39,407 bases of DNA, taken from positions 1 to 39,407 of the IMG/VR virus record IMGVR_UViG_3300009507_003338; one strand, given 5' to 3'. The notes under the pieces are model-generated. The model was not told where the DNA came from. It searched no databases and saw only the letters and a program-made list of their open reading frames with translations. Every line of letters starts with the position of its first letter. Position 1 is the first letter of the stretch. Source of the stretch: a virus. Shown one piece after another: positions 20,108 to 38,186 of the stretch. A program made the position numbers and the translations under genes.

Positions 20108-20849
20108 CAAACTACATTATGTTCACTTGAGTGGTGGGGGTAGACGGTGGAAACTACACCACTATCTATCCGTTAAATCCGCATACACACGAGGTGGGTT
20201 TAACTCCATTACAATTTGGATAGATACTGAACCCGATGGTGAGTGGTGGGATTTAACTAAACCAATGGTGAACATTCAGTTTGTAGAGCCGCCAAATGAA
20301 ATTTTTGGTAAACCAATTACGGAACAAGCACACAAATCTGATGTTATTCGACTTCAAGTTCTTTTAGAAGAGGGTGGGGTCTATGTGGACACGGATACTA
20401 TATTTGTCAAACCTTTTACCGAACTGTTAAATAACAAAGTAGTAATGGGTCAACAAGGAGTTGGTGGTTCGGAGGGGTTGTGTCCTGCTGTTATTTTATC
20501 AGAACCAAATTCAACTTTTCTTACACAATGGTTAATGGGATTTAGAGAGTCTTTTGGTGGTGGCCCACCGGGGTCTCCAACTTGGTGTACTCATTCGGTG
20601 GGATATCCGCTTTGGTTATCACGAAAAATTCCAAACGAAATCACTATTTTAAATCACGAAACTTTTTTTTGGCCGCTTTATCACCAAGACCATATTGAAA
20701 TGATGTTTGAGAATAATGTATCATTTCCCAATGCCTTCTCACACCACCTTTGGGAGAGTAGTGGTAAAAAGTATTTAGATGAAATGACACTTGACAAAAT
20801 AAAAGAGGATACGACCTCGTTTAATAAAATTGTAAAGGATTTAATATGA
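20097..20849 (+). CDS. DXD-motif glycosyltransferase (Gly_transf_sug / GT32-like)
   Basis: A 250-residue protein. It begins IPNKLHYVHLSGG, as in GT32-type enzymes, and has the conserved core AHKSDVIRLQVLLEEGGVYV followed by DTDTIFVKPF, where DTD is the metal-binding motif. Such enzymes transfer hexoses in LPS, capsule or O-glycans. The ATG at 20097 is preferred over an in-frame GTG two codons earlier because it gives the IPK/IPN start usual for the family. The 5' end overlaps the FkbM gene; the 3' end overlaps the next gene by four bases. Confidence 0.85.
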   Translation: MIPNKLHYVHLSGGGRRWKLHHYLSVKSAYTRGGFNSITIWIDTEPDGEWWDLTKPMVNIQFVEPPNEIFGKPITEQAHKSDVIRLQVLLEEGGVYVDTDTIFVKPFTELLNNKVVMGQQGVGGSEGLCPAVILSEPNSTFLTQWLMGFRESFGGGPPGSPTWCTHSVGYPLWLSRKIPNEITILNHETFFWPLYHQDHIEMMFENNVSFPNAFSHHLWESSGKKYLDEMTLDKIKEDTTSFNKIVKDLI

Positions 20850-22048: not shown

Positions 22049-22712
22049 TACTTATAAATTCGGAAACGAGATTTTAACATTATCCTCTCAAGATACAGAA
22101 CATACTATTGGGCTGATTCAAAATGAATTATCAACTTATAACTCTATTTTTAATGTAGATTTTAAACCAGATGATGTGATATTAGATTTAGGTGCCAATT
22201 TGGGGATAATATCAATATTATTATCAAAAAAATTCCCATTCACTAAAATATATTCATTCGAGGCATCGCCAATCAATTATGATAACCTTGTTAAGAACAT
22301 TAATGATAATGGGTGCACAAACATAACTTCATTTAATCGTGCAGTATGGTCGAAAACGGGTGAAATATTAAAGATACCAACCTCACCAACAAATTCAGGT
22401 GGTTCATCTATATTTTACAAACCTGAATTTTATGAAAAATATCCAGTATCCGAGGTGGAGACCATATCTTTACCCGATATCTTTTTAGAAAATAATATCA
22501 AAAGTTGTAAGTTGATGAAAATTGATGTAGAGGGTTCTGAATATGAAATATTTAAAAATTTAACTTCCGAATATTATAGTAAAATAAATAATATTGCTAT
22601 TGAGTTTCACAGATGTGAGGCGGCCAAATCTTTTGATTTGCGGGGTAATCTTAAAATTAACAACATTCCTATTGTATGCGAATTCAACGCAGGAGGTGGT
22701 AAATTGGTGTAA
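22041..22712 (+). CDS. FkbM-family methyltransferase (2)
   Basis: A 223-residue SAM methyltransferase with FkbM motifs: DVILDLGANLGIISILLS (motif I), KIYSFEASPINYDNLVKN, a VETISLPDIF strand and LMKIDVEGSEYEIFKNL (FkbM signature). It is shorter than copy 1 and lacks the long N-terminal part. It overlaps the previous gene by eight bases and directly abuts the HAD phosphatase gene. The substrate is probably a sugar hydroxyl or carboxyl group; not determinable here. Confidence 0.85.
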   Translation: MINTYKFGNEILTLSSQDTEHTIGLIQNELSTYNSIFNVDFKPDDVILDLGANLGIISILLSKKFPFTKIYSFEASPINYDNLVKNINDNGCTNITSFNRAVWSKTGEILKIPTSPTNSGGSSIFYKPEFYEKYPVSEVETISLPDIFLENNIKSCKLMKIDVEGSEYEIFKNLTSEYYSKINNIAIEFHRCEAAKSFDLRGNLKINNIPIVCEFNAGGGKLV

Positions 22713-23006
22713 ATGAACATATATGTAGATATTGATGAAACAATATGTTTCTATGAGGGAGACCGTGATTATAATAAAGCAGTCCCAAATTTGGAAAATA
22801 TAAAAAAAATTCGTATATTGTACGAACAGGGACATACTATAACCTATTGGACTGCAAGAGGAAGTGTAACCGGACTTGATTGGTATGATGTAACAAAAAA
22901 ACAATTAGATGAGTGGGGATGTAAGTATCACCATTTAAGTGTTGGTGAGAAACCACCATACGATTTATTAATATGTGATAAAACAAAAAGAATAGAAGAG
23001 TTATGA
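22713..23006 (+). CDS. Short HAD-superfamily phosphatase
   Basis: A 97-residue capless HAD-like protein. Motif I is YVDIDETICFY (DxD nucleophile pair), motif II is ITYWTARGS, and the C-terminal YDLLICDKTK supplies the third/fourth acidic motif. Such mini-HADs occur in capsule and LPS gene clusters. Here it immediately precedes a NeuB-like synthase; it could remove a phosphate from the sugar before activation, as nonulosonate-9-phosphate phosphatases do, but that link is inferred from order only. It contains a promoter-like sequence at 22790-22821. Confidence 0.7.
   Translation: MNIYVDIDETICFYEGDRDYNKAVPNLENIKKIRILYEQGHTITYWTARGSVTGLDWYDVTKKQLDEWGCKYHHLSVGEKPPYDLLICDKTKRIEEL
22790..22821 (+). 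promoter_or_regulatory. Candidate intragenic promoter ahead of the NeuB-like gene
   Basis: TTTG at 22790-22793, a spacer of exactly 20 bases ending TTCG, and TATATTGT at 22814-22821, inside the HAD gene. Apart from the last two bases it matches the five intergenic promoters and could give the nonulosonate genes a separate transcript. Confidence 0.42.
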
Positions 23007-23854
23007 AAAAAACTTATATTATCGGCGAAATTGGTATCAACCACAATGGTGACCTTAACATCGCAAAAAAACTAATTGATATTGCAGCAGTTGCGGGTTG
23101 TGATGCAGTTAAATTTCAGAAACGAAATCCTGATGTATGTGTTCCGGAACATCAAAAAAATGTTATAAGAGACACCCCATGGGGACAAATGACATACTTG
23201 GATTACAAGTACAAAGTTGAGTTTGAAAAAGCTGAATATGATGAGATTGACCAATATTGTAAAGAGAAGGGAATCGCATGGTCAGCGTCGCCGTGGGATA
23301 TGGACTCTCTTGAATTCTTGAATGGTTATGATATTCCATTTATCAAACTACCATCAGCAATGTTGACAAATGATGAATTGCTTGAAGGTTGTGTTGCTAC
23401 CGGTAAACAAGTAATTTTCTCAACAGGTATGTCAACCGCAGAAGAAATTGACCACGCAGTTGATGTTCTTCGTAACGCCAAACTAAAATATAATAACCCT
23501 CATAAAATTGGATTGTTACATTGTAACTCAACGTATCCAGCTCCAATTGAAGAACTAAACTTGTCAGGCGTTCAAACATTAGCTGATATGTATCCTGATT
23601 TTGAGATTGGGTATTCGGGTCACGAGTTCCGATTGGGAACAACAGTAGCCGCAGTTTATTTGGGTGCTAGTATTATTGAACGACACATTACCCTTGATAG
23701 AACAATGTGGGGGTCAGACCATATGGCATCAGTTGAACCACAGGGTTTGATTAAATTAGTTAAAGGTATCCGTGAGTTAGAACTAGCGTATGGTGATGGT
23801 GTAATCAAAGTTACCGACTCTGAAGTTCCTGTTCGTAAAAAATTGAGAGGTTAA
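23003..23854 (+). CDS. NeuB-like nonulosonic acid synthase without SAF domain
   Basis: A 283-residue TIM-barrel enzyme of the NeuB/SpsE family, which condenses phosphoenolpyruvate with a hexosamine-derived aldose to give sialic-acid-type sugars. Seen: IIGEIGINHNGDL at the N-terminus, GCDAVKFQKRNPD, WSASPWDMDSLEFL, FIKLPSAMLTN, FSTGMSTAEEI, LLHCNSTYP, EIGYSGHE and ERHITLDRTMWGSDH. It stops at KVTDSEVPVRKKLRG, where usual NeuB proteins (about 340 residues) continue into a C-terminal antifreeze-like SAF domain; that domain is absent. It overlaps the HAD gene by four bases and the CMP-transferase gene by one. Confidence 0.9.
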   Translation: MKKTYIIGEIGINHNGDLNIAKKLIDIAAVAGCDAVKFQKRNPDVCVPEHQKNVIRDTPWGQMTYLDYKYKVEFEKAEYDEIDQYCKEKGIAWSASPWDMDSLEFLNGYDIPFIKLPSAMLTNDELLEGCVATGKQVIFSTGMSTAEEIDHAVDVLRNAKLKYNNPHKIGLLHCNSTYPAPIEELNLSGVQTLADMYPDFEIGYSGHEFRLGTTVAAVYLGASIIERHITLDRTMWGSDHMASVEPQGLIKLVKGIRELELAYGDGVIKVTDSEVPVRKKLRG

Positions 23855-24534
23855 TGAAATCAATCTCCGATGTTGTAGTAATTCTTCAGGCAAGGATGAA
23901 TTCACAAAGAGTCCCTCGTAAGATGTTAAGACCCTTTGCTGACTCAACCTTGTTTGAGATTGCTATAAATAAACTATTGGACTCAAAAATACTCCCTAAA
24001 GAAAACATATATGTTTCGGTCTACGAGGATGAGTTAAAAGAGATTGCAAACAAATACGGAGTTAACCTCTACCATCGAAGTGAGGAGTCCGCAAATAACG
24101 ACAACTCTCTCCAAAAAATATATGAATGGCATGACAAGCTCCCATTTAAATATGTCATAAAGATAAATGGGTGTTCTCCGTTGTTGAAAACGAAAACCAT
24201 TGATGGTTTTATAAATCAGTTTTTGGCGCAAGAAGAAGATAACTTGTTTGGAGTAATTCCCATGAAAGATTACTTTTGGAATAAAGAAGGTAAGTTGGTA
24301 ACTCCATGGCCAGAAGACCAAACAATTATGAACACTAAAGCAGTTGAAGTTACTTACAAAGCAGCCCACGTTTTATATGCATCTCGTATGGATTTAATAT
24401 CACAAAATATGTTTATGGGTGATTTCCAAAAAGAAGGTGGTATAAAATTATATCCAATGGATGAGTTGGAGTGTTTTGATATTGACTACGAATGGCAGTT
24501 TAAACTTGGCGAAACTTTATATGGAACTATTTAA
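23854..24534 (+). CDS. CMP-sugar (nonulosonate) cytidylyltransferase-like protein
   Basis: A 226-residue nucleotidyltransferase of the NeuA/SpsF/KdsB type. Signature: VVILQARMNSQRVPRKML, the CTP-binding start of the fold, then IKINGCSPLLKTKTIDGFI and, near the end, ECFDIDYEWQFKL, the DxD-containing metal-binding segment (FDIDYEWQF). It directly follows the NeuB-like synthase, so it should activate that product as a CMP-sugar. The overlap of 14 bases with the next gene suggests coupled translation. It lacks the extra hydrolase domain seen in some NeuA proteins. Confidence 0.85.
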   Translation: MKSISDVVVILQARMNSQRVPRKMLRPFADSTLFEIAINKLLDSKILPKENIYVSVYEDELKEIANKYGVNLYHRSEESANNDNSLQKIYEWHDKLPFKYVIKINGCSPLLKTKTIDGFINQFLAQEEDNLFGVIPMKDYFWNKEGKLVTPWPEDQTIMNTKAVEVTYKAAHVLYASRMDLISQNMFMGDFQKEGGIKLYPMDELECFDIDYEWQFKLGETLYGTI

Positions 24535-25189
24535 GTTCATACAAGGAAATACCCAATTACTCTCTGAAAACATATCCGACAAAAGGGTATTAGTATTAGG
24601 GTCAGGCCCATCTGCCAGAGAAGTAGATTGGGAATCTTATGATTGGGATGTTCTTGTAACTACAAGCTTTTTTTATTTAAATGATTTGGTCGTTTCTAAA
24701 AAACCAGTACACATAACCCTTTCAGACATTGTAGACTTGACCGACAATAGATTATTGAAATACTTGGATTCAAACCCAAGATGTACAATTGGATTTGAAC
24801 CAAAAGTACATCCATTTTACGAATCATCGGAGTTTAAAAATTTTGTGTCAAAATACAAATCAAGAATTATATTATATAATGTGACTGGTGGTAAAGAAGG
24901 AGTTGCTGGTAGAGTATGTTGGTTAGTTCTTGCCTGTGAACCTACACATCTAATGATTTGTGGAATTGATGGTGTTAGTAAAGATAGAACTTCAGACCCA
25001 CAAAACTATTTTAGAACACATATTGGAACGGTAGACCCATATCCATATGAAGATTATAAAAATTCTTTTGAAGAATTCGGAATGAATCTATATACAGCTG
25101 CTAATCAATTAAATGTGATTATTAAAAATCTTGGAATTGGCAAGTCGTATAATATGATTAGTAATATAAGTAAAAAGTTTGAAAAATGA
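24521..25189 (+). CDS. MptE/DUF115- or GT42-sialyltransferase-like protein
   Basis: A 222-residue protein. Near the N-terminus KRVLVLGSGPSAREVDWESY resembles the glycine loop and (E/D)ID pattern shared by DUF115/MptE-like proteins and GT42 sialyltransferases. A later VCWLVLACEPTHLMICGIDG matches their second conserved block. The start is the ATG at 24521; longer in-frame options fall inside the previous gene. Directly downstream of NeuB- and NeuA-like genes, a CMP-nonulosonate transferase is an attractive guess, but a pterin- or nucleotide-related activity is not excluded. Confidence 0.5.
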   Translation: MELFKFIQGNTQLLSENISDKRVLVLGSGPSAREVDWESYDWDVLVTTSFFYLNDLVVSKKPVHITLSDIVDLTDNRLLKYLDSNPRCTIGFEPKVHPFYESSEFKNFVSKYKSRIILYNVTGGKEGVAGRVCWLVLACEPTHLMICGIDGVSKDRTSDPQNYFRTHIGTVDPYPYEDYKNSFEEFGMNLYTAANQLNVIIKNLGIGKSYNMISNISKKFEK

Positions 25190-26247
25190 TTAGAATATTA
25201 CATATTGGAGCTTTAAACGGTAATCTTGGAGACAATATTGCTATAAAAAATGTACAAAAGTCATTTATGTCTCAACATAAAGATATTGAATTTGTTATGT
25301 TGAATGCACATGACCTTTGGAATATCCAAAACAATCCAGAGGTGGTTATTTCAACAATAAAACAAAACAATGTAGACGCGGTTCTAATAGGCGGTGGTGG
25401 GCTCGTTGAGTATCATTCATATCAGTCTCAACTTACAAAACAAAAGTTACCATTAAACGAACATATAATCAAAGAATGTGGTGTTCCTATATTTTTATAT
25501 GGTGTGGGTATAAACACTTTCAGAGGAAATTCCACTTGGCCAGATGATGTAAAATCCACAGTTAGGTCAATATTTTCTTCAGTAGCTGAATGTTCTTTGA
25601 GGAACGATGGTTCTATTGATAAGGCTAAGAAGTTAGATTTGTATTCTGATAAAATTATTGAGATACCAGACCCTGGATTATTACACCACCCATCTGCTGT
25701 AAATAAATCAATTATACGCACCGGAGTATTCCAACCGGCTGAAAATGGAAGTACGAAAATAAATAAAAATAGGTTTTTAGATTTTGAAGAATACATAAAA
25801 AATATTCCATCAAATTATAATTTACCTATATTTCCACATACAAAAAAGGATTTTGGGTTTAATGGAAAGTATTTGATAGGAACTAATACATTTTCACAAA
25901 TATCTCAATTTGAAAAAGTAGATGCTGTGTTACGAAGTTACTTTGATTATGATTATGTAGTAGCAATGAGAGGGCACGGTCAATTGGTATCAATAGGTAT
26001 GAATATTCCTGGTATATATTTATCAACACAAGACAAAGTAACACACTTTTCAGTAAACAATGGATTTTCTAATTATAACATTGATGTATTAGATTCCGAT
26101 TGGATTGCTAAATTTGAAGATATGATGTATCGCATTAAAAATGACCAATCATATATAACCGAGTGGTATCAGATACGAAACGAGAATATGAAAAAGTGGC
26201 AAACCCAAGATGCCGAATTTGTTCAAAAATGTTTATCCCATATTTAA
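25186..26247 (+). CDS. Polysaccharide pyruvyltransferase family protein
   Basis: A 353-residue protein of the polysaccharide pyruvyltransferase family, which adds pyruvate ketals from phosphoenolpyruvate to sugars; some members act as sialyltransferase-like enzymes. Seen: ILHIGALNGNLGDNIAI (NxGD motif), AVLIGGGGLVEY (GGGG loop), FLYGVGINTF, and YVVAMRGHGQLVSIGMNIP (RxHG motif). It overlaps the previous gene by four bases. It would add negative charge to the glycan, in keeping with the nonulosonate genes. Confidence 0.85.
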   Translation: MIRILHIGALNGNLGDNIAIKNVQKSFMSQHKDIEFVMLNAHDLWNIQNNPEVVISTIKQNNVDAVLIGGGGLVEYHSYQSQLTKQKLPLNEHIIKECGVPIFLYGVGINTFRGNSTWPDDVKSTVRSIFSSVAECSLRNDGSIDKAKKLDLYSDKIIEIPDPGLLHHPSAVNKSIIRTGVFQPAENGSTKINKNRFLDFEEYIKNIPSNYNLPIFPHTKKDFGFNGKYLIGTNTFSQISQFEKVDAVLRSYFDYDYVVAMRGHGQLVSIGMNIPGIYLSTQDKVTHFSVNNGFSNYNIDVLDSDWIAKFEDMMYRIKNDQSYITEWYQIRNENMKKWQTQDAEFVQKCLSHI

Positions 26248-26251
26248 TATT

Positions 26252-26950
26252 ATGAATTGTATTATTTGCAACAACGACTCCATACAAACACAAACTGATG
26301 TTTACAAGTGCCCTATGTGTTCTCACACATATGTTAACTTTTTAGGAGACCCCATCCAATATCATAAAGAATCATATCGAAAAAATAAGTTCGGAACTCG
26401 TGGTTCGGGTGAGATTGAAAATGATGTATTTACTGAAAATTTTCACAATTTTAGAAAGCCAATATGTGAAAAGAGGATACATAAAATAAAAGACCTGATT
26501 GATGATTCAACAAGTATGTTTGATATCGGCGCTGGCGGTGGTACTTTTTTGAATACTATTGGTGATATGATATCCCAAAAGGAATGCCAAGAGGTTAGTG
26601 ATATTTGTATTAAAAATCTTGAGTTGCAAGGATATACTACATATCGTGGTGATTTTTGTTCAATGGATATTCCAAATGAATATGACTTGGTGACCTGCTT
26701 CCATGTTTTAGAACACATTAAAAATTTAGATGCATTTGTAGACGCTGCATATAAAATAACAAAGAAGTATCTTGTTATAGAGGTTCCGGTTAATAGAAGT
26801 ATCCCACCACCAAATGAAAGATGGGATGGTCACTATCATTATTTTTCAAACCAATCTATGAGAGATTTGTTTTCTAATAAATTTGAAGTAATATCTATAC
26901 AAGAGGGAGTTCAGTCTCCAGCTATGTTGGTAACGCTAAAGAAGGTATGA
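26252..26950 (+). CDS. Class I SAM methyltransferase with N-terminal zinc ribbon
   Basis: A 232-residue protein. The first residues, MNCIICNN and YKCPMCSHTYV, give a four-Cys zinc ribbon. The methyltransferase fold follows: SMFDIGAGGGTFLNTI (motif I) and DLVTCFHVLEHIKNLD (the FHVLEH motif of the methyltransferase 23/type 12 group), then HYHYFSNQSMRDLF. Proteins of this layout are common in LPS and deoxysugar clusters (C-methyl- or O-methyltransferases). The start is the ATG at 26252, which places the first Cys pair at the N-terminus. Confidence 0.8.
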   Translation: MNCIICNNDSIQTQTDVYKCPMCSHTYVNFLGDPIQYHKESYRKNKFGTRGSGEIENDVFTENFHNFRKPICEKRIHKIKDLIDDSTSMFDIGAGGGTFLNTIGDMISQKECQEVSDICIKNLELQGYTTYRGDFCSMDIPNEYDLVTCFHVLEHIKNLDAFVDAAYKITKKYLVIEVPVNRSIPPPNERWDGHYHYFSNQSMRDLFSNKFEVISIQEGVQSPAMLVTLKKV

Positions 26951-28113
26951 AAAAAATAACATTTTGTATTCCAAGTAAATCAAACTTGAGATACTTAAAA
27001 ACAGCAATCCCATCTATTAGAGAAAATGCATATCGTAAAGACCACGACATTATTGTATTCGTGGATTCCGATGAAGATGGAACACTTGAGTGGTTAGAAG
27101 AAAATTCAGAATCACTTGGTGTAAAATACTATGTAAATCCTAACTTGGGAAACTCACTATATGGTATTGGAAAGGCATATGATTATTGCATCGATAAGTC
27201 GGAGACTCCAATCGTAATGATATTCCATGCTGATATGATTTTAGGTAAAGATGCAGACTATCACGCATTCAAACACCTAAAACCACTATCAGTCGTATGT
27301 TCAACTCGTATTGAACCACCACTTCACCCAAATGGTGGCGAAAAGATTTTAGAAGATTTTGGTTTGTATCCAGAAGAGTTTAAGGAAAGTGAGTTTGATT
27401 CATATGTAGATAATCTACTCACCCAAAATGATGGAACGACTACTGAAGGTATCTTTGCACCTTGGATGGTGTACAGGGAAGACATTCAGTCGATTGGTGG
27501 GCATGACCCTATTATGCATTCTTGTAGAGAGGATTCTGACCTATTCAATAGATTTGTACTAAATGGGTATTCATTAGTACAATCTTGGGATTCGTTGGTT
27601 TATCACTTTACAGGTCGTGGTGCTGGTTCATTTGATGGTGATGTTGAAAGACACGAACGATGGAAAGCTGATATGCATAACTCTACTAAAGAGTTTATTC
27701 GTAAGTGGGGGTCAAATGTAAAGCATGATAAAATGATGAATCCAATCATTCCCCACAAATACGATGTAGAGTTCAAGGTAACTAACGCAGATGCCAGAAT
27801 CATAAACATTTTAGAACCTTGGTGTAGTAGAATAACGGTAGATTGTTCTGAAGAAATTATCAATGACTATATTGAATTAGAACAACCAAACACTCAATTT
27901 GACTTGACTATGAGATTCAACACGAGTGGTGAGTCCGATATCATTGTAGAATTTGATGCTCGTTCACTCACTCAAAACTCATTTAACTTCATTCAACAAC
28001 TATCGGAAATCTTTGATTTTAATGAATTTGAGAGTGGTGAGTACGAATTCGACATATTTAAAATAAAGGTCAATAGAGTAAAACACTATGAAAACACCTT
28101 GATAAATCTATGA
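26947..28113 (+). CDS. GT2-family glycosyltransferase with C-terminal extension
   Basis: A 388-residue protein. The N-terminal 230 residues are GT2-like: KITFCIPSKSNLRYL, DIIVFVDSDEDGTLEWL, VMIFHADMILGKDADY (HAD in place of DxD), and a C-terminal GGHDPIMHSCREDSDLFNRF with the ED motif of GT2 catalytic bases. The last 130 residues, starting around RIINILEPW, form an unrelated alpha/beta part without recognised family. It is the last clear sugar gene; it is joined by four bases to a small phage gene, so the cluster runs into phage-type genes without a break. Confidence 0.75.
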   Translation: MKKITFCIPSKSNLRYLKTAIPSIRENAYRKDHDIIVFVDSDEDGTLEWLEENSESLGVKYYVNPNLGNSLYGIGKAYDYCIDKSETPIVMIFHADMILGKDADYHAFKHLKPLSVVCSTRIEPPLHPNGGEKILEDFGLYPEEFKESEFDSYVDNLLTQNDGTTTEGIFAPWMVYREDIQSIGGHDPIMHSCREDSDLFNRFVLNGYSLVQSWDSLVYHFTGRGAGSFDGDVERHERWKADMHNSTKEFIRKWGSNVKHDKMMNPIIPHKYDVEFKVTNADARIINILEPWCSRITVDCSEEIINDYIELEQPNTQFDLTMRFNTSGESDIIVEFDARSLTQNSFNFIQQLSEIFDFNEFESGEYEFDIFKIKVNRVKHYENTLINL

Positions 28114-28922: not shown

Positions 28923-29846
28923 ATGTTACTAAAAGTTGGTTCACGAGGAGACCTCGTAAAAGATGTACAAGAAGTAGTTGGTGTTGCAGCCGATGGTATC
29001 TTTGGAAAAGGAACTGCTGAAGCAGTTAAGAAATGGCAGGCAGCCAATGGTTTGGATGCTGATGGTTTAGTTGGTAAAGGAACTTTAGGTAAAATGGGAT
29101 TGTTGGATACCGATGGCGCTTCTTCAGAAGCAAATCCAGAATCTGCAAGTGGTCTATACACAAAGAAACCATATACAACTAAAAATGGTTTGGAAATTGT
29201 AGAATACTTTATGCCCGAAGATGAGTACAAAAAGGGCCCTATCAAAGCAGAGTGGTTGTTCTTACACCACACCGCTGGATGGCACAACCCTTACAACGTA
29301 ATCAAACAATGGGATGCTGATAAGAACGGCCCAATCTCAACCGAATTCGTATTGGGTGGCCCTTCTTGTAAAGGTAACGATGACAAGTATGATGGTGAGA
29401 TGGTTCAAGCATTCCCTGCTGGAAACTGGGGATACCACTTGGGTAAGAATGGTTCACAAAAGATGCACGTTAACTCGATTGGTGTTGAGGTTTGTAACTT
29501 TGGTTATGTGAAAGATGGTAAGACATATGCCGGTGCTGCTGTTGACCCATCACAAATCGTAACTTTGGCTAAACCATTTAGAGGTCACTCAACTTGGCAC
29601 AAATACTCTGATAAACAAATTCAGGCATTGAAGTTGTGGATGGAGTTTATCGCTGAAAGAGATGGTATTGATATCAGAGCCGGTCTTCCTGCATTGGTTA
29701 AAGAAAAAGGTGCTGACGCATTTGAATTTAACGAAGATGCATACTACGGAAAAGTTAAGGGTGTATGGACACACACTAACACTCGTAAAGATAAGTTTGA
29801 TATGTTCCCACAACAAGAGTTGTTGGATATGTTGGTAAGTTTATAA
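28923..29846 (+). CDS. Endolysin: N-acetylmuramoyl-L-alanine amidase with peptidoglycan-binding domain
   Basis: A 307-residue endolysin. Residues 1-60 form a PG_binding_1 domain (GDLVKDVQEVVGV, DGIFGKGTAEAVKKWQAANG). The rest is an Amidase_2 domain, which cuts the bond between muramic acid and L-Ala in peptidoglycan. Zinc ligands are suggested by WLFLHHTAGWHN and GHSTWHKYSDKQ, and INSIGVEVC-like HVNSIGVEVCNFG is the usual family strand. There is no signal peptide, so export should need the holin-like protein encoded next. AAGGAG precedes the start. Confidence 0.9.
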   Translation: MLLKVGSRGDLVKDVQEVVGVAADGIFGKGTAEAVKKWQAANGLDADGLVGKGTLGKMGLLDTDGASSEANPESASGLYTKKPYTTKNGLEIVEYFMPEDEYKKGPIKAEWLFLHHTAGWHNPYNVIKQWDADKNGPISTEFVLGGPSCKGNDDKYDGEMVQAFPAGNWGYHLGKNGSQKMHVNSIGVEVCNFGYVKDGKTYAGAAVDPSQIVTLAKPFRGHSTWHKYSDKQIQALKLWMEFIAERDGIDIRAGLPALVKEKGADAFEFNEDAYYGKVKGVWTHTNTRKDKFDMFPQQELLDMLVSL

Positions 29847-29901: not shown

Positions 29902-30165
29902 ATGTTTTCATATATTAGGAGAAAATTTATGGCATTTAGTGACATTTTTAAAGACAACAATGACTACAACGAGAAAAACATCGTTGGTTTCTTGTCATTC
30001 GCAGTTATGGCAATCTTTGCTGGCGCTGATGTTGTTACGGGTATTTTGGGTCAAGATTTGGTAATTTCAGATACCATCTTTAACTCATTCGTTATCATCG
30101 TACTTGGTTCATTTGGTATTGATGGTGCTACTAAAATCTTTAGTAAGAATAAAGAAGAAGAATAA
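29902..30165 (+). CDS. Holin-like small membrane protein with two possible starts
   Basis: An 87-residue protein with two hydrophobic segments: IVGFLSFAVMAIFAGADVV and the stretch around IFNSFVIIVLGSFGI, with charged ends (C-terminus KNKEEE). Size, topology and position right after the amidase suit a holin. Two ATGs, at 29902 and 29929, each have a Shine-Dalgarno sequence (GGAG at 29893, AGGAG at 29917). The longer form adds a basic N-terminus, MFSYIRRKF. By analogy with lambda S, the long form could act as an inhibitor, but this is inference. A strong hairpin follows. Confidence 0.6.
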   Translation: MFSYIRRKFMAFSDIFKDNNDYNEKNIVGFLSFAVMAIFAGADVVTGILGQDLVISDTIFNSFVIIVLGSFGIDGATKIFSKNKEEE

Positions 30166-30170
30166 TCCAT

Positions 30171-30246
30171 AAGTAGGGTCGCCGTATATTTTAGAATTTA
30201 AGGTGATTGAGTATTGAATGTATTTTCAGGCGACCCTACTTTTTTT
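30171..30246 (+). terminator. Perfect 13-bp hairpin with 45-base loop and T-run
   Basis: AAGTAGGGTCGCC (30171-30183) pairs perfectly with GGCGACCCTACTT (30229-30241), followed by T to 30246. The G+C-rich stem stands out in A+T-rich DNA. It should terminate the lysis transcript. The loop is unusually long and could carry further structure. The adjacent span 30247-30307 has no gene. Confidence 0.75.
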
Positions 30247-30269
30247 CAATTAGTTACTTATTGGTTATC

Positions 30270-30307: not shown

Positions 30308-32236
30308 ATGAAAAAACTATCACTATTGTTCGTGACTTTGTTTGCGGCAATTAACACATTTGGCCAGAATGGGTCAAACGAAATCTTAACTCCACCAAAT
30401 ACTACGACGCCGTATATTTTGGTGGATACTTTGTTTACATTGGCAGACTATCCGAATGCTTATACTGATGTATACATTCACTTTGCCAATCCGACTGCTG
30501 ATGATATCAAAGCAGTTCAGTTCAGATTGTTTTACGACAATACAAACTTTACAACCCCAGAAATCTATTGGGGGCCAACGGCTACTTCGATAATCGACAA
30601 GTATGGTTCGTATTTTGCAAGTTCAGATTACATTAACGTAATCGCATCTTACACAGGTAACACTGCAAACTTCAATTGGGCCGATGGTGCTATGTTTAAA
30701 TTGAGATTATACCACACCACCACATATCAAGGTGTTGTTGACTCAATTGCAATCGCAGGTTCGACATCTTACAACAACCTTGCTACAAAAGACAATGGTG
30801 TGGATGTAACATTGGGTATGTACAACTATGGTGGTAATTTCCAAATGAACCCATTGACATTCCCAATCAAAGTTAGAAACGCAGATGGTTCAAACGCACA
30901 AGGTGTTTGGTTTACAACAAGTAAGAGATTGAAGAGTGACTCTCAAGGGTCTTGGACTGCTATTGTTTCTGACTCTACAAACTCAAATGGTTTGATGGAA
31001 GTTGTTCACCCAATTGATACAAACTTCTGGCATTTGAGAGTAGTTGCTCAAACTGATACAATGACCGATGGTTCTGCTCTATCAGTTGTCGATGCATACA
31101 AACTTGCTAACGCAGCTTCAATGCAAGACACCTTAACTGGTATTGAGTTGTACGAAGGTGATATCAACGAAAGTGATGACATCACTATTTCAGACGCATT
31201 TGCTATGTTTAATAGATTAGCATTGGGTTCTACAAACTGGAACTCTTTGTTTACTAACACATACAACGTATCAGTATTATGGCCAAGTGAATTCACTTCT
31301 GCTAATTCAGCAACTTCAGTTCCAACTTGGGCAAACACTCCGAGAGTATATACAATTGATACGATTGTGAATTCATTAGACTCATTGAAACCATACATCT
31401 ATGTAGTAGGTGATGCTACCACTACGGGTTATAACAACCCAGCAGTATTGATTGCTAAAATGGCCAACCCAGGTACAGGTACGGATTATATCCTTGACCC
31501 AGCAATCTATATGAACAACATTGATGATACAATCCAATTCCACATTCCAAAGTTGGTAATCACTTCAGATGAGACTATGGAAGTACCTGTTACAATGATG
31601 ACATTTGGTAATAACATTGGTGCTGCACAAATGGGTATTGAGTTTGATACATCTATCTTTAGATTTAACTCAATCAATATGGGTGATGCTGCTTCCAAGT
31701 GGACTTCTATGTTGAGTGTACAAGAGAATACAGTATTCTGGGCTGGACACGAAGACAAGATGAACCCAAGTGTGATTACTGATATGACTACAACATTTAC
31801 ATTTGTATTTGATGTAATCAACCCAATCGGATGGCAGACATCTCCGTTGAAAATCTTCAACAAAGCTGCTGGTGATGAGAACGCTTATGACTTAAACATC
31901 AAACCATCACCAAACGATGGTTCGGTAGTTAACAAACGTGACATTGATGCCGACTTGTTAGATTTGATGCAAGGTTTCAAGGTATATCCTAACCCAACTT
32001 CAGACGCATATGACAACTGGGTATTCATCGAACACCACAACGACCTTGAAGGTTCAACCCTTAACGCAATGGTATACGATATGTTTGGTAGAGAAGTGAT
32101 GAACTACTCTGACATTATCTACGAACGTGGTTTCCAATTCCACGGATTTAGAATGACTGACTTACCAGAAGGTATGTATTTAGTTAGATTGGTTACGCCG
32201 GATAGAGAGAAGTTTTATAGAATCGTAAAATATTAA
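30308..32236 (+). CDS. Secreted T9SS cargo with cohesin/dockerin-like regions
   Basis: A 642-residue protein. It has a signal peptide (MKKLSLLFVTLFAAINTFG) with Q20 at the predicted +1 site. Residues about 30-160 and 400-540 are beta-rich and look cohesin-like (AVQFRLFYDN; VPVTMMTFG, then QMGIEFDTSIFRF). Between them lies a dockerin-like half repeat, GDINESDDITISDAFAMFNR (from G284). The last 84 residues (559-642) form a T9SS type A sorting domain: VYPNPTSDAY, YDMFGREV, then LPEGMYLVRLVTP and a basic end. The domain is known to direct export by the host T9SS, often with cell-surface attachment. TAGGAG precedes the start. A virion adhesin is an alternative. Confidence 0.85.
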   Translation: MKKLSLLFVTLFAAINTFGQNGSNEILTPPNTTTPYILVDTLFTLADYPNAYTDVYIHFANPTADDIKAVQFRLFYDNTNFTTPEIYWGPTATSIIDKYGSYFASSDYINVIASYTGNTANFNWADGAMFKLRLYHTTTYQGVVDSIAIAGSTSYNNLATKDNGVDVTLGMYNYGGNFQMNPLTFPIKVRNADGSNAQGVWFTTSKRLKSDSQGSWTAIVSDSTNSNGLMEVVHPIDTNFWHLRVVAQTDTMTDGSALSVVDAYKLANAASMQDTLTGIELYEGDINESDDITISDAFAMFNRLALGSTNWNSLFTNTYNVSVLWPSEFTSANSATSVPTWANTPRVYTIDTIVNSLDSLKPYIYVVGDATTTGYNNPAVLIAKMANPGTGTDYILDPAIYMNNIDDTIQFHIPKLVITSDETMEVPVTMMTFGNNIGAAQMGIEFDTSIFRFNSINMGDAASKWTSMLSVQENTVFWAGHEDKMNPSVITDMTTTFTFVFDVINPIGWQTSPLKIFNKAAGDENAYDLNIKPSPNDGSVVNKRDIDADLLDLMQGFKVYPNPTSDAYDNWVFIEHHNDLEGSTLNAMVYDMFGREVMNYSDIIYERGFQFHGFRMTDLPEGMYLVRLVTPDREKFYRIVKY

Positions 32237-32245
32237 GAGGTTAAT

Positions 32246-32632
32246 ATGCAAGAAGAAATCAAAGAAGGAATGTCAAACCTTAAAAAAGGTATTATTGGGT
32301 TTGCCGGTACAGCAGTAGCTGGAGTAGGAACATTTCTAATGACTCAATTTAATTCTATGTTAGGAATCGAAGAAGAGTCATCAGCACCAACGGAAGTAGT
32401 TGCACCAGTTGAGAACAATAACTCACAAAGTGTTAATGTTACTGGTCCAGAGATTATTATCAATATCCCTGAACAAAAGGCAGCACCTGCTCCTACACGA
32501 ACTATCATCAGAGAGACTGTTAAGGAAGTTCCTGCAGCACCAGTTGAGGTAGTAGAAGAGAAGCCAGAAACTCCAATGGAAAGAATGGCAAGATTGAAGA
32601 AGGAACGTGCAGCACAAAACGAGGGTAAGTAA
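32246..32632 (+). CDS. Single-span membrane protein with Pro/Glu-rich tail
   Basis: A 128-residue protein. A hydrophobic segment (GIIGFAGTAVAGVGTFLMTQ, residues about 15-35) follows a short charged N-terminus. The rest is extended and rich in Pro, Glu and Val (PEIIINIPEQKAAPAP, VKEVPAAPVEVVEEKPE), ending in a basic helix MERMARLKKER. A tail of this kind could span the periplasm, as in TonB-like or tether proteins, but no family is recognised. It stands one base ahead of the CsgG-like gene, which suggests a shared task at the envelope. Confidence 0.6.
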   Translation: MQEEIKEGMSNLKKGIIGFAGTAVAGVGTFLMTQFNSMLGIEEESSAPTEVVAPVENNNSQSVNVTGPEIIINIPEQKAAPAPTRTIIRETVKEVPAAPVEVVEEKPETPMERMARLKKERAAQNEGK

Positions 32633-32633
32633 A

Positions 32634-33377
32634 ATGAGAACAAGAAGAGATGAAATTTTAGAGTTGATTTTTGCACCTCTTGGGTTACTATTTGTTGTAG
32701 TTGGATTGTTGTTCGTAGGTGGATTCGCCACCTCATGTTCATCTTCAGTTGGTGTAGTTCAATACCAAGCTGACTTTGAAAAAGCAGACCAACCCCTTAA
32801 TAGCATTGCACCTTATACTGGTGAAAAGCAAATCGTACAACTTGCTAAACTAAACGTAAACAAAGAACTTTGGGATATGTTCCCAGAGTTGAGAGATAAA
32901 AGAGTTGGTTTGGGTGTATCAAATCGTATCATTGAGAACTTTGAAGTTACTGGTAGATTTGCATACGCTGAAGAAAAAGAAGCCATTCAAAATCAAATGT
33001 TAGATGCTTGGGAAACCGAACTTAATGGTTTGGGTGATGGGCAAACACAATTGAAGATGGAAGGTATTGCTCTACCAAAATATGTTGTTTACGCAGAAAT
33101 CTACGACTTTGCAGTTTCTTATGGAGAAGATTATAACAAAGGTAAGGTTCAGAAGACCAATACCACGATTATGGGTATTCAGATTAGAATGACAAGTGTT
33201 GATAACGGACAATATATTGTGGCAAGTGGACAAGGTACTGCAACTCAAGTAGGTGAAGGTATGTTCAAAAACCCACAAATGGGATTTGATAACTCAACAG
33301 TCGGAATCGCTACCCAACGTGCATTGGAGGTCGCTACAATGAACCTCGTGAAACGTATGGAAGCATATGGATGGTAA
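32634..33377 (+). CDS. CsgG-like outer-membrane lipoprotein
   Basis: A 247-residue protein. The N-terminal hydrophobic segment ends in a lipobox-like FATSC, giving Cys35 as the lipidated residue, and no acidic surface-export signal follows it. Residues about 150-245 match the CsgG family: LPKYVVYAEIYDFAVSYG, TTIMGIQIRMTSVDNGQYIV, then FDNSTVGIATQRALEVATM and LVKRM. CsgG of curli systems forms a nonameric outer-membrane pore. Family length is about 270. The start at 32634 is taken because the longer frame runs into the preceding gene. No curlin (CsgA/B) repeats are seen nearby. From memory, csgG-like genes have been reported in other marine phages. Confidence 0.75.
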   Translation: MRTRRDEILELIFAPLGLLFVVVGLLFVGGFATSCSSSVGVVQYQADFEKADQPLNSIAPYTGEKQIVQLAKLNVNKELWDMFPELRDKRVGLGVSNRIIENFEVTGRFAYAEEKEAIQNQMLDAWETELNGLGDGQTQLKMEGIALPKYVVYAEIYDFAVSYGEDYNKGKVQKTNTTIMGIQIRMTSVDNGQYIVASGQGTATQVGEGMFKNPQMGFDNSTVGIATQRALEVATMNLVKRMEAYGW

Positions 33378-34893
33378 AAGGTGGTTAGTATTAGTTTTAC
33401 TACTTATAGGGTTTAAGTCATTTGGTCAGTCGTACCAATACACTTATACTGACCCTTGTACTGGTATTCCTAATACTGTAACTATCACTCAACCACTTGG
33501 TTCGGTAACACTTTTTTACGCCGGTCAATGGCAAACATTTACAGCGACCCAACTTCAGTCTGGTGGATATGAAGCTTGGGTCGCTTCTATTAATGCACAA
33601 TTCCCACCGGGTTCTAACCCTTGTGCTGGAGCTGGAGCACAAACATCTACATCATCAAATTCATCAACGGCATCTAATACAGCAATGAATGTATCAAGTA
33701 TCGTTGGTATTGCGGCTTCGTTGGGGTCTCAAACATCATCTACAACAATAACACCACCATCAGGTGGAACAAGTACAGGAGGTTCAAATGGTAATTCTAA
33801 CAACTCTGGTGGTAGTGGTTCTTCTACTGGCACTAATAACGGCGGGAATTCTTCAGGTTCTTCAACATCAGGAGGAACGAGTGGGTCGAGCTCTGGGTCA
33901 TCTTCTAATGGGGGTAACAGTGGTAATGGGGGCTCTTCCGGCAGTTCTTCTGGTTCTTCAAGTGGTGGGTCTTCTACCGGAGGAAGTGGTTCATCCGGCT
34001 CAAGTGGAGGTTCAAGTGGAAGCTCTGGCTCCGGAGGTGGAGGCACGGGTGGAAGTGGTGAACCATCTGGTGGAGTAAGTGGTACTGATGGGGGTGGTGT
34101 ATCCTCTGGTGGAACTGATAGTGGTAGTGGAACATCTGAAGGTGCAGTAGGTGGTACTGATAATACAACCACAGCAAGTGGTGGTGACTCTGAAGGTGGA
34201 GATGATGGTGGGGGTGGTGGCTCCGGTGGGTCTAAAAAGAAATCTAAACAAGAAAAGATTGGTAGAGGTGCATTGATTGGCGCGGGTGACTTTGTAGTAA
34301 TCAGAAATGGTAGTGACTACAAAGCACAGGGTAATGATAATTTTAAATTCAATATGTCCTTAACTCACGTTAATACCAAACAAACTTTCATCAAAGGTAT
34401 CAACTTCAACTACACCACAGGTGAGAATGTTCTTAACTCAACTCTATATGGTTCATATAAGAATAATGGATTTATGGGTGTATTCTCAAACTCCACAATG
34501 ACTAACTTTAAAACCGATGTTTTCAATACCACTACGGCAATGGTAACTCAAAAGTTGTGGATTGTAACTCCAATGTTAGGAACTAACCTTACATTTGGTA
34601 AGATTGGAACAAGTGACTTTCAGAACTGGTCAATTATTGCTGGTGGATTTACTAACTTTAATAACGATTGGTTTTTGAATGGTAATGTAATGTTACTTGG
34701 AATCTATTCTCCTTACATATTTTATTATGAGGGGCAGTGGTATAAGAGTGGATTGTTATTCGTACCATTGGCTAATTTGGATATAAAGTTGACTGACACA
34801 TTTAAGTGGAGTTTATCATTTGGTGGAGCATACCAATGGAAAGCAGATATTCTAAACTTTCAGATTTCAACAGGAACAAAGATATTGTTATGA
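33367..34893 (+). CDS. Secreted Gly/Ser-rich protein with barrel-like C-terminus
   Basis: A 508-residue protein. The signal peptide (MDGKRWLVLVLLLIGFKSFG) leaves Q21 at +1. Residues 21-85 form a small domain with two Cys. Residues about 88-289 are almost entirely Gly, Ser, Thr and Asn. Residues 290-508 show alternating strands typical of an outer-membrane barrel (TFIKGINFNYTTG, STLYGSYKNNGFMGVFSNS, WSLSFGGAYQW) and end ISTGTKILL. The low-complexity part could be a flexible surface-exposed linker. It overlaps the CsgG-like gene by 11 bases and the next gene by four. No family is recognised. Confidence 0.7.
   Translation: MDGKRWLVLVLLLIGFKSFGQSYQYTYTDPCTGIPNTVTITQPLGSVTLFYAGQWQTFTATQLQSGGYEAWVASINAQFPPGSNPCAGAGAQTSTSSNSSTASNTAMNVSSIVGIAASLGSQTSSTTITPPSGGTSTGGSNGNSNNSGGSGSSTGTNNGGNSSGSSTSGGTSGSSSGSSSNGGNSGNGGSSGSSSGSSSGGSSTGGSGSSGSSGGSSGSSGSGGGGTGGSGEPSGGVSGTDGGGVSSGGTDSGSGTSEGAVGGTDNTTTASGGDSEGGDDGGGGGSGGSKKKSKQEKIGRGALIGAGDFVVIRNGSDYKAQGNDNFKFNMSLTHVNTKQTFIKGINFNYTTGENVLNSTLYGSYKNNGFMGVFSNSTMTNFKTDVFNTTTAMVTQKLWIVTPMLGTNLTFGKIGTSDFQNWSIIAGGFTNFNNDWFLNGNVMLLGIYSPYIFYYEGQWYKSGLLFVPLANLDIKLTDTFKWSLSFGGAYQWKADILNFQISTGTKILL
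33628..34230 (+). repeat. Low-complexity Gly/Ser/Thr coding repeat
   Basis: About 600 bases made mostly of GGT/GGA/TCT/TCA/AGT/ACA-type codons encode the Gly/Ser-rich stretch. The repeats are irregular and vary at synonymous sites, with no fixed unit. The G+C content is locally higher than the surroundings. On the opposite strand the same composition creates a long Pro/Glu-rich frame that is not a gene. Confidence 0.75.
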
Positions 34894-36041
34894 GAAAGTT
34901 TATTTTAAATCTTATTTTTATACTGTGGGTATCAATTGGTGGATATTCTCAAACCATTACCCTTACTCCTATTGGTGATGCAAGTGTTAATAGTATTGAT
35001 ATTGAGGTAGAACATTTTGTTAATTATGTTCCTAACCATTCTATCTACTCTCAAAATTACTCACCATTATCAACGGCAGGTACTTCGGTTAATGTTGGTG
35101 ATGATAGTAATGTGGGCCCATTCAACATAGGATTTAACTTTGAATTCTACGGACAAACCTTTTCACAATTTAGAATATGTACTAACGGATTTATAACATT
35201 TGGTAATACCGCAGGAACATATTCTCCAACTTCATTTCCATCATCGGCAAATCCAAATGGAGTAGTTGCAGCATATTGGACTGACCTCTACCCATCATCG
35301 GGTTATTATATAAGATATCAGACTGTTGGAACTGCGCCAAATAGACAACTGATTGTAAGTGCCCACTTAACCTATTACTCAAATAGAAATGCTTGGGTGG
35401 ATTATCAAATCGTATTGTTTGAAGGAACAAATAAGATATGGACTACAATCACATCACAAGGTTGGACTCCAACTGCAACTCAAGGTGTGGAAAACCATAA
35501 TGGTACTTTAGCAGCAACTCCAACGGGTAGAAACTTGGCAGGATTTAACGGAGCAGGTTCAACATACGAATATGCACCTCAAGCAGCAATTACCCAATGG
35601 GAATCACAAGGAGTTAAAATAACAAATACAGCAGGTCAAGTAACATTCTCTAATAATTCAAATTGGGATTATAGAGTTACTTTTAGTGTGAGTAATGAAC
35701 CAAGTATTATGACTACTGCTGAAATGAATTACCTAATGTATAAAAAGGCTGGATTAAGTCTTTTAACTGATTGGGATTTTTACACTTGTGATATAGATGA
35801 TACTGGTGGATTTGATTGGGATGATATCAAATATGGATATGATTTACTAAATGGTGGACTATACTATAAGAGTTATATATTTACCCAATCACAAAAAACA
35901 ACCATAGAATCCAATCCAACTACTAATTATTATAGTACATATCCACCAACCCAAAGTGGAACATTTTCAAATCAAAATCAGTTTTATATAATGGCAACTG
36001 GAAAACATAAAACAATTATAAGTGGGGAGAAGATACAATGA
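34890..36041 (+). CDS. Secreted adhesin-like protein with dockerin-like motif
   Basis: A 383-residue protein. The signal peptide (MRKFILNLIFILWVSIGGYS) leaves Q21 at +1. Residues about 65-240 resemble the extracellular module common in Bacteroidota surface proteins: FNIGFNFEFYGQTFSQFRI, CTNGFITFGNT, GVVAAYWTDLYP, YQIVLFEGTNKIW, TQGVENHNGT. Near the C-terminus CDIDDTGGFDWDDIKYGYDL is a dockerin-like half repeat similar to that in the T9SS cargo upstream. There is no T9SS sorting domain. The ATG at 34890 is chosen because it gives the signal peptide and an ATGA overlap. Binding to glycan or host surface is inference. Confidence 0.7.
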   Translation: MRKFILNLIFILWVSIGGYSQTITLTPIGDASVNSIDIEVEHFVNYVPNHSIYSQNYSPLSTAGTSVNVGDDSNVGPFNIGFNFEFYGQTFSQFRICTNGFITFGNTAGTYSPTSFPSSANPNGVVAAYWTDLYPSSGYYIRYQTVGTAPNRQLIVSAHLTYYSNRNAWVDYQIVLFEGTNKIWTTITSQGWTPTATQGVENHNGTLAATPTGRNLAGFNGAGSTYEYAPQAAITQWESQGVKITNTAGQVTFSNNSNWDYRVTFSVSNEPSIMTTAEMNYLMYKKAGLSLLTDWDFYTCDIDDTGGFDWDDIKYGYDLLNGGLYYKSYIFTQSQKTTIESNPTTNYYSTYPPTQSGTFSNQNQFYIMATGKHKTIISGEKIQ

Positions 36042-36436
36042 ATCCAATCGCATGTTATTTCGTAGCTTCAGTATTATCTTTAGCATCAATCAAAGATATA
36101 CCTGAAGAAAAGTTTACTTTTGGTGTAAGACAAATCACCGAAGAAATCGTAGGTCAAGAAGCACCTCTTTGTCCTGGTGGTTCACCAATCTATGTGGTAG
36201 TAAATGAAATCAAAGCACCAACTCAAGGTATTCGTGTTGGCCCTTTTGAATTCAAACAAAAAAAGACATTTGTAACTGTGACCGTAACCAAAGATGGTAA
36301 AGAATCGGTTGGAGTGGGAACTGCTAAAATGAATGTAGCAGCAACTTTACTTCAATTGCAAGATGAAAATTTACCATTTGAACAAACAGAATTCTCAATT
36401 GCTGTAAAAAGAGCGATTGAAGATGCTCTTCACTAA
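36038..36436 (+). CDS. Small CsgG-fold-like protein
   Basis: A 132-residue protein with a weakly hydrophobic N-terminus (MNPIACYFVASVLSLAS). The C-terminal 80 residues follow the same order as the CsgG-like protein upstream: PIYVVVNEIKAP, then an FVTVTVTKDGKESVGVGTA strand pair, and PFEQTEFSIAVKRAIEDAL matching the helix FDNSTVGIATQRALEVA. It may be a half-size relative that caps or modulates the pore. The relation is by pattern only. It overlaps the previous gene by four bases. Whether it is exported is unclear. Confidence 0.5.
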   Translation: MNPIACYFVASVLSLASIKDIPEEKFTFGVRQITEEIVGQEAPLCPGGSPIYVVVNEIKAPTQGIRVGPFEFKQKKTFVTVTVTKDGKESVGVGTAKMNVAATLLQLQDENLPFEQTEFSIAVKRAIEDALH

Positions 36437-36461
36437 TACTTATATAATAGGAGTTATTAAT

Positions 36462-37538
36462 ATGAGAAGGTTATTGTTATTGGTCACGATGTTAGTTACG
36501 GTTACAACATCAGCGCAAATTAAAGATTTTTTTAAGTATTCAACGATATATGGAACGGCTATCATAAATCAGCCGGTACAAGACCCATATGGTGATTGGT
36601 TTATTCCACGGGATTGGACAATACAGCCCCAACCAATTCAAAATCAGAATGAATATAATTACAATTATTCATTGGGTATTCGTAAGATTGCTAGATTTAA
36701 ATATGAAAATAGACCATCCATTTTTTACGATGGTACTGAAAAAAACATTTCAACTTCAACTAACATAGGCGCAGTTAGTGGTTGGGAGTATTTGTTTCAT
36801 AGTGAGTTAGCACGACAAATTGGGCAAACATATGTAAACAACAATTACTTTTTAAGACATTTGGGTAAACACCATATTGTAAAGGTAGAACGCTTTGATA
36901 ACACATTTGTAAATTTGAACTATTCCGCTGCTGATGTAAGATATAGACAATCAATTGGTAGTAAGTTTAATTTATCATTTGGTGTAAACTTCCGTGACCA
37001 TATGTACTACGGAATTGCTCCAATTAAATTTTATTTAGATGATGGGGGTTCTTGGTTGGCACTTGCATACGAGGCAGGATACCAAGACTATTCAGTAGAT
37101 GTAGAATATAATGATGGTACTTCATACACAGAATACCATTGGATGAACGATGGTGGTGATACCATCGCTCTTTCTGACTGGGAGTTTAGAAGATTAAAGT
37201 GGGATGAGATTGCAGGTGACTTTAATAGTATGATGTTAGATTCTATTGGTATACTTGGAACATTTACGCCTGTAATTGGGCTGGACTTCTATCATAGAAC
37301 GGAAGAATTGTGGGTACACGTTTGGGGAAGTGTTCTTCCATATAATTTACATATTTATGGTAATCCAGACTACTTCTATGGAGTAGATAACGGATATTGG
37401 GTTGATTATCAAATAGGGTTAGTATCCGGAGTGTGGTTAACAAAGAAACTTGGAATCTATTTAGAAGTATCAAACCAAAGATTTTGGGATAGGGAACTTT
37501 ACAGTGTAAAAGCTGGACTTAATTATCAGTTTAAATAA
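36462..37538 (+). CDS. Secreted outer-membrane-type protein, probably beta-barrel
   Basis: A 358-residue protein. The signal peptide (MRRLLLLVTMLVTVTTSA) leaves Q19 at +1. The mature part has many alternating aromatic strands (VNLNYSAADVRYRQS, FNLSFGVNFRDHMYYG, LGIYLEVSNQRFW) and ends SVKAGLNYQFK, where a terminal aromatic strand resembles the closing strand of outer-membrane barrels. The ATG at 36462 has AGGAG eight bases upstream; an in-frame start at 36417 lacks this and lies within the previous gene. No family is recognised. It could be an added porin-like protein or a surface receptor mask. Confidence 0.65.
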   Translation: MRRLLLLVTMLVTVTTSAQIKDFFKYSTIYGTAIINQPVQDPYGDWFIPRDWTIQPQPIQNQNEYNYNYSLGIRKIARFKYENRPSIFYDGTEKNISTSTNIGAVSGWEYLFHSELARQIGQTYVNNNYFLRHLGKHHIVKVERFDNTFVNLNYSAADVRYRQSIGSKFNLSFGVNFRDHMYYGIAPIKFYLDDGGSWLALAYEAGYQDYSVDVEYNDGTSYTEYHWMNDGGDTIALSDWEFRRLKWDEIAGDFNSMMLDSIGILGTFTPVIGLDFYHRTEELWVHVWGSVLPYNLHIYGNPDYFYGVDNGYWVDYQIGLVSGVWLTKKLGIYLEVSNQRFWDRELYSVKAGLNYQFK

Positions 37539-37539
37539 A

Positions 37540-37815
37540 ATGGCAAAAGAATTAAACGAAGACACAGGATTTAATGTATCGATTAAAACATTAATTGGTA
37601 TTGGAGTAGGTATTGCTACTGTTGTAGGTATGTGGTATGCTCTTCAAGATGACATTCAAGAAGCAAAAGAACTTCCAGTACCAGTTATTAGTAGAACCGA
37701 ATACGAACTCAAGGATGAATTAGTACGCCAGACCATTATGGATACGCAAGATGATGTTGAAGATATTAAAGAACAATTAGATAAAATCGAAGACCGATTG
37801 TTTGAATCACGATGA
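37540..37815 (+). CDS. Single-span membrane protein with coiled coil
   Basis: A 91-residue protein. One transmembrane segment (LIGIGVGIATVVGMWYAL, residues about 18-36) is followed by an acidic region and a heptad-like coiled coil (MDTQDDVEDIKEQLDKIEDRL). The layout resembles small phage spanin- or holin-type proteins and phage membrane organisers, but no specific family fits. It starts one base after the barrel-like gene and overlaps the next gene by four. Confidence 0.6.
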   Translation: MAKELNEDTGFNVSIKTLIGIGVGIATVVGMWYALQDDIQEAKELPVPVISRTEYELKDELVRQTIMDTQDDVEDIKEQLDKIEDRLFESR

Positions 37816-38186
37816 AAAAGTTGTTAGTCATATTATCTTTACTTTGGGTTACCACATCATTTGGCCAATCTTTACCAAAAAGCTTATCACCCGAAACATT
37901 GAATCGAGCAATTAATACTGGTGTTGTGATTGTTGAGTTTGATGCAAAATTTGCTAAACCATTCGCAGATTGGGATGAGATTGAAGATTGTAAATATTAT
38001 AGAGTTGATATTGAAAAATATCCTGAACTAAAAGACAAATGGAAAATTAGAACAGTACCAACCATTATATTGTTTCATAATGGAAATAAACATAAAACTT
38101 GGAAAGCCAACATTATGTTGGAGTTGGATGTTACTGCAAAAGAAATCCAAGAAGAAATTGAAGAGTTACTATCATCACAATTTTAA
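37812..38186 (+). CDS. Exported thioredoxin-fold protein lacking the CxxC site
   Basis: A 124-residue protein. The signal peptide (MKKLLVILSLLWVTTSFG) leaves Q19 at +1. The fold follows thioredoxin: VVIVEFDAKFAKPFADW takes the place of VEFWAxWCGPC, so both active-site cysteines are missing. Next come YYRVDIEKYPELKDKWKIRT and VPTIILFHNGNKH, with the cis-proline motif VPT intact. A redox role is therefore unlikely; it may be a chaperone or structural subunit, as T7 uses thioredoxin without redox chemistry. It is the last gene of the envelope operon. Confidence 0.7.
   Translation: MKKLLVILSLLWVTTSFGQSLPKSLSPETLNRAINTGVVIVEFDAKFAKPFADWDEIEDCKYYRVDIEKYPELKDKWKIRTVPTIILFHNGNKHKTWKANIMLELDVTAKEIQEEIEELLSSQF

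Follow-up and report, generated by a model that had tools for sequence, protein, structure and literature searches.

CsgG is encoded together with CsgF in pelagimyophages (PMC7029224), podo- and myo-pelagiphages carry CsgG/CsgF with CsgA/B, FecR and an adenylate cyclase (PMC9599517), and a role in triggering lysis has been proposed for the CsgGF genes of methylophage Melnitz (PMC9004378); Cryophage encodes variable T9SS-tagged cargo (PMC7468147). Here we describe a locus in a viral sequence of 39,407 nucleotides (IMG/VR record IMGVR_UViG_3300009507_003338, analysed over its whole length and hereafter called the window), in which nine plus-strand open reading frames, g1 to g9, stand in a row at 30308-38186.

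As in the pelagiphage and methylophage curli modules, g1-g6 place a gene for a CsgG-fold envelope protein in tailed phages, within a conserved block that is rare or absent in the host, but they lack CsgF, CsgA/B, FecR, histidine kinase and cyclase; in their place are g4 with its predicted barrel, g6 as a further CsgG-fold protein, the cohesin-T9SS scaffold g1 and the exchangeable lectins of g5. Like Cryophage, the module encodes T9SS cargo and has binding or enzyme domains that vary, PA14 among them, and in both the host T9SS is presumably hijacked; in Cryophage the sorting tail is on every variable protein, whereas here it is on one conserved scaffold, with a dockerin-like module on the variable protein in its stead. 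Cellulosome scaffoldins (CipA; PDB 2b59, 3kcp) likewise present cohesins on an anchored scaffold, their partner being an X domain (Ig/transthyretin-like) joined to a dockerin. Unlike cellulosomes, g1-g6 are phage-borne and T9SS-anchored, with one or two cohesins, weak dockerin similarity and no cellulases or carbohydrate-binding modules seen.

Thus, the view of an earlier note on this DNA, that no phage module with such a set of parts had been described, stood for the combination but not for the parts, since CsgG/T8SS modules and T9SS cargo, known separately, are published precedents. No description of cohesin or dockerin parts in phages was found in the open-access literature.

Layout and distribution of the locus

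The features are given by window coordinates, strand and description:

28923-29846, then 29902-30165, +: endolysin/amidase gene, then holin-like gene, upstream of the terminator and outside the module
30171-30247, +: intrinsic terminator (long stem and T run), upstream of the module
30308-32236, +: g1, 642 aa, signal peptide and N-terminal cohesin-like domain, scaffoldin-like
about 30893-31411, +: g1 X-dockerin-like module
about 31562-31850, +: g1 cohesin
31982-32209, +: g1 T9SS C-terminal sorting domain
32246-32632, +: g2, 128 aa, a single membrane span at the N-terminus followed by a tail rich in Pro, Ala and Glu; conserved in the module
32634-33377, +: g3, 247 aa, CsgG-fold envelope protein
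33367-34893, +: g4, 508 aa, signal peptide, then a small beta domain in which two Cys are invariant
about 33727-34266, +: g4 Ser/Gly-rich disordered linker
34270-34884, +: g4 C-terminal region, an outer-membrane barrel of 12 strands in the model
34890-36041, +: g5, 383 aa, signal peptide and exchangeable N-terminal binding domain
about 35556-36002, +: g5 C-terminal X-dockerin-like module
36038-36436, +: g6, 132 aa, small paralogue of g3, also of CsgG fold
36462-37538, +: g7, 358 aa, exported, with a barrel-like end; member of the triplet
37540-37815, +: g8, 91 aa, a single span at the N-terminus, then a charged tail that is probably a coiled coil; member of the triplet
37812-38186, +: g9, 124 aa, exported thioredoxin fold without a CXXC motif; member of the triplet

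The earlier note had described nine consecutive, closely spaced genes behind a strong terminator, five of them with Sec signal peptides and two with a single membrane span, and all of this was borne out. Gaps between the genes ranged from -11 to +25 nt, and the terminator segment (30165-30252) folded at -30 kcal/mol (z -6.3), with none of 200 shuffled sequences equally stable. Inspection of the N-termini by eye, for a basic start, a run of hydrophobic residues and a small residue preceding Q, identified Sec-type signals in g1, g4, g5, g7 and g9 and single spans in g2 and g8. Sigma-70-type promoter matches in the region were fewer than in shuffled sequence. The nine genes are followed by a short basic ORF and then by a gene matching an unnamed phage family, and the remaining window is clearly phage, with DNA polymerase, clamp, clamp loader, exonuclease, Mom-like proteins and glycosyltransferases. 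A search of PHROGs returned no usable function for any of g1-g6, and a DNA-level search with the whole operon against annotated phages gave no match.

Absence of the gene set from related phages, which the earlier note had named as a finding that would count against it, was looked for: scanning IMG/VR with g3 yielded 56 loci, and among the 45 non-redundant loci with enough flanking DNA, g1, g2, g3, g4 and g6 co-occurred in 40, mostly in the same order. A scan with the g3 alignment extended the group to at least 558 IMG/VR contigs with a g3 relative. The same set is present in an isolate, Flavobacterium phage immuto, as gp013-gp019, mostly annotated as hypothetical; upstream of it lies an exported DNA/RNA endonuclease-like gene (gp012; L057 9935-10513), and L048 has a similar gene at 5438-6055, also upstream. 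In one clade (L110-L115) g3-g4-g6 were present and the cohesin/T9SS protein, where fetched, was more divergent. Among 84,980 bacterial genomes, only five had a g3 relative, all on MAG contigs, in a scan that relies on fixed peptide patterns and will therefore miss distant cellular relatives. Judged by gene content, the g1-g6 block is a conserved unit of Bacteroidota viruses that is nearly missing from bacteria.

At least two of the five MAG relatives look cellular. In L061 (9974-16013), probably a cellular locus, a transglutaminase-like gene and a CHASE2 cyclase lie downstream of g3 and a g6-like gene; cyclases also occur in pelagiphage T8SS modules. L059 (787-3591), probably cellular as well, has g3 and a g6-like gene with an exported gene of g4 size between them. 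One of these pairs of CsgG-fold genes comes from an Ignavibacteriales MAG and one from a KSB1 MAG, and pairs of this type are a possible cellular source of the module core.

The remaining three genes behaved differently, and the claim that all nine form a single conserved unit was ruled out: g1-g6 stood as a module, but g7-g9 travel apart from it as a triplet of their own, so that the window joins two units. Of 32 loci found via g7 (L064-L095), 27 had g7, g8 and g9 together, and in eight of the 27 a recognised holin-like gene lay between the members; the triplet was missing from all other g1-g6 loci compared. g8 is spanin-like in layout alone. The triplet is perhaps a lysis-related unit.

The CsgG-fold, predicted barrel and membrane-span proteins

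g3 had no direct Pfam match to CsgG, and the profiles of g3 and g6 gave nothing meaningful against PDB sequences, so a comparison of folds was needed. AF2 modelled g3 with moderate confidence (pLDDT 63, pTM 0.52). All of the top 25 PDB matches of this model were CsgG (E 8.7e-8, probability 1.0), with PelC and lipoproteins like it next, and its best match among viral models was a phage protein named CsgG. The link is also sequence-based, since cellular homologues 37-43% identical to g3 exceed the Pfam CsgG cut-off of 20.8 bits, with 28.6 and 25.7. Predicted structure and homologue scores together thus place g3 in the CsgG superfamily, consistently with the CsgG-like fold pattern first noticed in the letters. 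In tblastn, g3 proved too divergent to reach any CsgG of annotated phages other than that of immuto.

The claim of a CsgG-like pore stood as regards the fold, and the pore itself is putative. The monomer model contains a long beta hairpin (residues 150-188) and a short loop (209-219), and these two hairpin segments look, by eye, shorter than those in the known sequence of CsgG. g3 resembles E. coli CsgG (PDB 4uv2, 4uv3) in fold and appears to differ from it in these segments and, in some clades, by the missing lipobox. The lipobox reported earlier corresponds to a lipobox-like Cys that closes a hydrophobic N-terminal stretch (GGFATSC); it is weak and, present in the window and many relatives, is absent in L048, L049, L050, L054 and immuto.

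g6 is related to g3 (hhalign E 8.8e-6), with an invariant Cys6 and a second Cys that is mostly conserved. In the clade of the window, g6 (36038-36120) starts just before the conserved Cys and has no clear signal peptide, which is present in g6 of other clades.

The C-terminal region of g4 was modelled with long strands and its Foldseek matches were outer-membrane barrels, so that g4 is predicted to end in such a barrel; confidence in the overall model is low because of the disordered linker, which varies in length and is short in several clades. The tail of g2 is probably periplasmic.

The scaffoldin-like g1 and the exchangeable g5

The most telling feature of the locus, overlooked in the earlier note, is a cohesin scaffold together with exchangeable lectin-type proteins on a dockerin-like module. 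In the window, g1 scored 27.0 bits for Cohesin, above the curated cut-off of 24.1, and 25.6 bits for the T9SS tail (Por_Secre_tail), slightly below the cut-off of 27; each family matched all 22 g1 relatives (for Cohesin, at E up to 0.1), and the g1 profile matched solved T9SS tails (best E 8.4e-6) and cohesins at the expected positions. Several relatives have a weaker second cohesin near the g1 N-terminus. With a Sec signal peptide and a C-terminal sorting domain, g1 is by its architecture T9SS cargo, in agreement with the earlier assignment.

Fifteen phage records of 100-228 kb were surveyed for the same parts. Cohesins above the cut-off were confined to a single ORF, g1, in 14 of them; the fifteenth had two sub-threshold matches in g1, and one record had an extra sub-threshold match elsewhere. 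As for T9SS tails above the cut-off, 13 records had one, one record had two and one had none.

g5, with a signal peptide and no T9SS tail, carries in its C-terminal half an X-dockerin-like module that is also present in the middle of g1. The profile of this module matched transthyretin-like domains and dockerins in the PDB, including the X-dockerin of CipA; 12 of the 21 matches were dockerins or scaffoldin X-dockerins, each of them weak (E 0.02-1). Dockerin_1 matched 13 of the 22 g1 proteins (best E 7.8e-5), the scores shown falling below the curated cut-off. The module contains the conserved segment D-x-N-x-x-x-x-[IV]-[ST]-x-[SA]-D and, in the 15 records, was found at 0-3 places per record, always within this block. 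In immuto, two ORFs take the place of g1, one with the X-dockerin part and the other with the cohesin and the T9SS tail, and four contigs have this two-ORF layout too. Both immuto halves start with a signal peptide, which is most easily explained if they meet outside the cytoplasm; split g1 is suggestive, and only suggestive, of assembly by cohesin-dockerin contact.

The N-terminal part of g5 is exchangeable. Across relatives it was a C-type lectin, PA14, laminin-G/ConA-like or Ig-like domain, mutually unrelated folds, and in the window a beta-rich domain without an assigned family. Between L041 and L124, identity was 93% in g3, 91% in the g4 barrel and 82% in g1 and fell to 21% in the g5 binding region, and between L030 and L107 it was 96% in g3 and 22% in that region; alignments of such close phages thus indicate that g5 binding domains are replaced wholesale and the rest is kept. 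A diversity-generating retroelement behind this diversity was considered and rejected, as RVT_1 was found in none of 20 records (possibly incomplete), in a search that recovered the reverse transcriptase in three well-known genomes.

Possible roles of the module and its surroundings

We give slightly better than even chances to a reading in which g1-g6 form a phage-encoded surface-display system for Bacteroidota hosts, infected cells showing interchangeable adhesins. The export route and the benefit, like localisation, binding and time of expression, are what we infer. Host T9SS would carry g1 to the outer face during infection, g5 would leave the periplasm through or together with a g3/g4/g6 complex that g2 might steady from the inner membrane, and the X-dockerin-like module of g5 would snap onto the cohesin of g1, leaving the infected cell with a lectin or adhesin of the phage's choosing. 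The most likely benefit would be altered binding of the infected cell and its debris, either as sticking to neighbouring hosts or particles or as masking of receptors against rival phages, and the data favour neither. The fuller version of this reading, in which a CsgG-fold/barrel machine exports swappable adhesins and mounts them on a T9SS-anchored cohesin scaffold as a phage-specific surface organelle that reprograms the binding of Bacteroidota cells, is held more tentatively, at a little under even. The dedicated outer-membrane or cell-surface structure proposed earlier for all nine genes is the best-supported reading, restricted to g1-g6.

Gene neighbourhood makes lysis a real rival, albeit an unlikely one, in which g3/g4/g6 would open, depolarise or weaken the outer membrane late in infection in place of spanins, with g1 and g5 as accessories. 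The endolysin/amidase and holin-like genes are recurrent neighbours of the module, an endolysin-like gene was found in the fetched flank, upstream or downstream, in 30 of 45 loci, and the triggering role proposed in Melnitz (PMC9004378) is in line with this; but a T9SS-anchored cohesin scaffold and exchangeable lectins would be left unexplained, the annotated endolysin of immuto is about 6 kb away from the block, and the more spanin-like layout is that of g8, in the other unit. 

A divergent curli-type (T8SS) system, exporting the Ser/Gly-rich g4 or another small protein through g3 as an extracellular amyloid fibre, we regard as improbable. The CsgG fold of g3, the CsgF/CsgG/CsgA-B modules of pelagiphages (PMC9599517) and a small g6 that might cap or gate g3 in the manner of CsgE are consistent with it, but at E up to 1 none of the nine proteins matched the CsgE or CsgF families or the curlin repeat of CsgA/B, and the Ser/Gly stretch is the length-variable disordered linker before the barrel.

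Least probable of all is decoration of virions, for example by adhesins that bind released particles after lysis and help them to attach to hosts or surfaces. Phage attachment proteins often contain C-type lectin or Ig-like folds, and g5 varies like a host-range gene, but Sec signals on g1, g4 and g5 and the T9SS tail of g1 are at odds with the cytoplasmic assembly of tailed virions, and the 15 records had no second above-cut-off cohesin and no X-dockerin-like module outside the block, therefore no apparent partner to which they could dock on a virion. The literature searched contained no virion proteome of immuto.

A surface organelle of this kind, if real, would to judge from the literature searched be the first description of cohesin-dockerin display in viruses. 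Bacteroidota phages of a large group, one of them cultured, invest 6-8 kb in something built in or on the envelope of cells that are soon to be lysed, a puzzle also posed by the curli genes of pelagiphages. Since the cargo on the conserved scaffold is a binding domain that can be recognised and exchanged, steering of adhesion, aggregation or rival exclusion by lytic phages is directly testable, and the cultured Flavobacterium phage immuto makes a laboratory test feasible.

Two further regions of the window were noted. At 1268-2807 two Mom-like genes for DNA modification lie side by side (phrog_1384, E 3.6e-51 and 3.4e-44) and seem to stem from a tandem duplication. Upstream of the module, at 14580-28110, two glycosyltransferases are followed by many genes, those searched having few PHROG matches (one methyltransferase), in what is possibly a glycan or surface-modification island.
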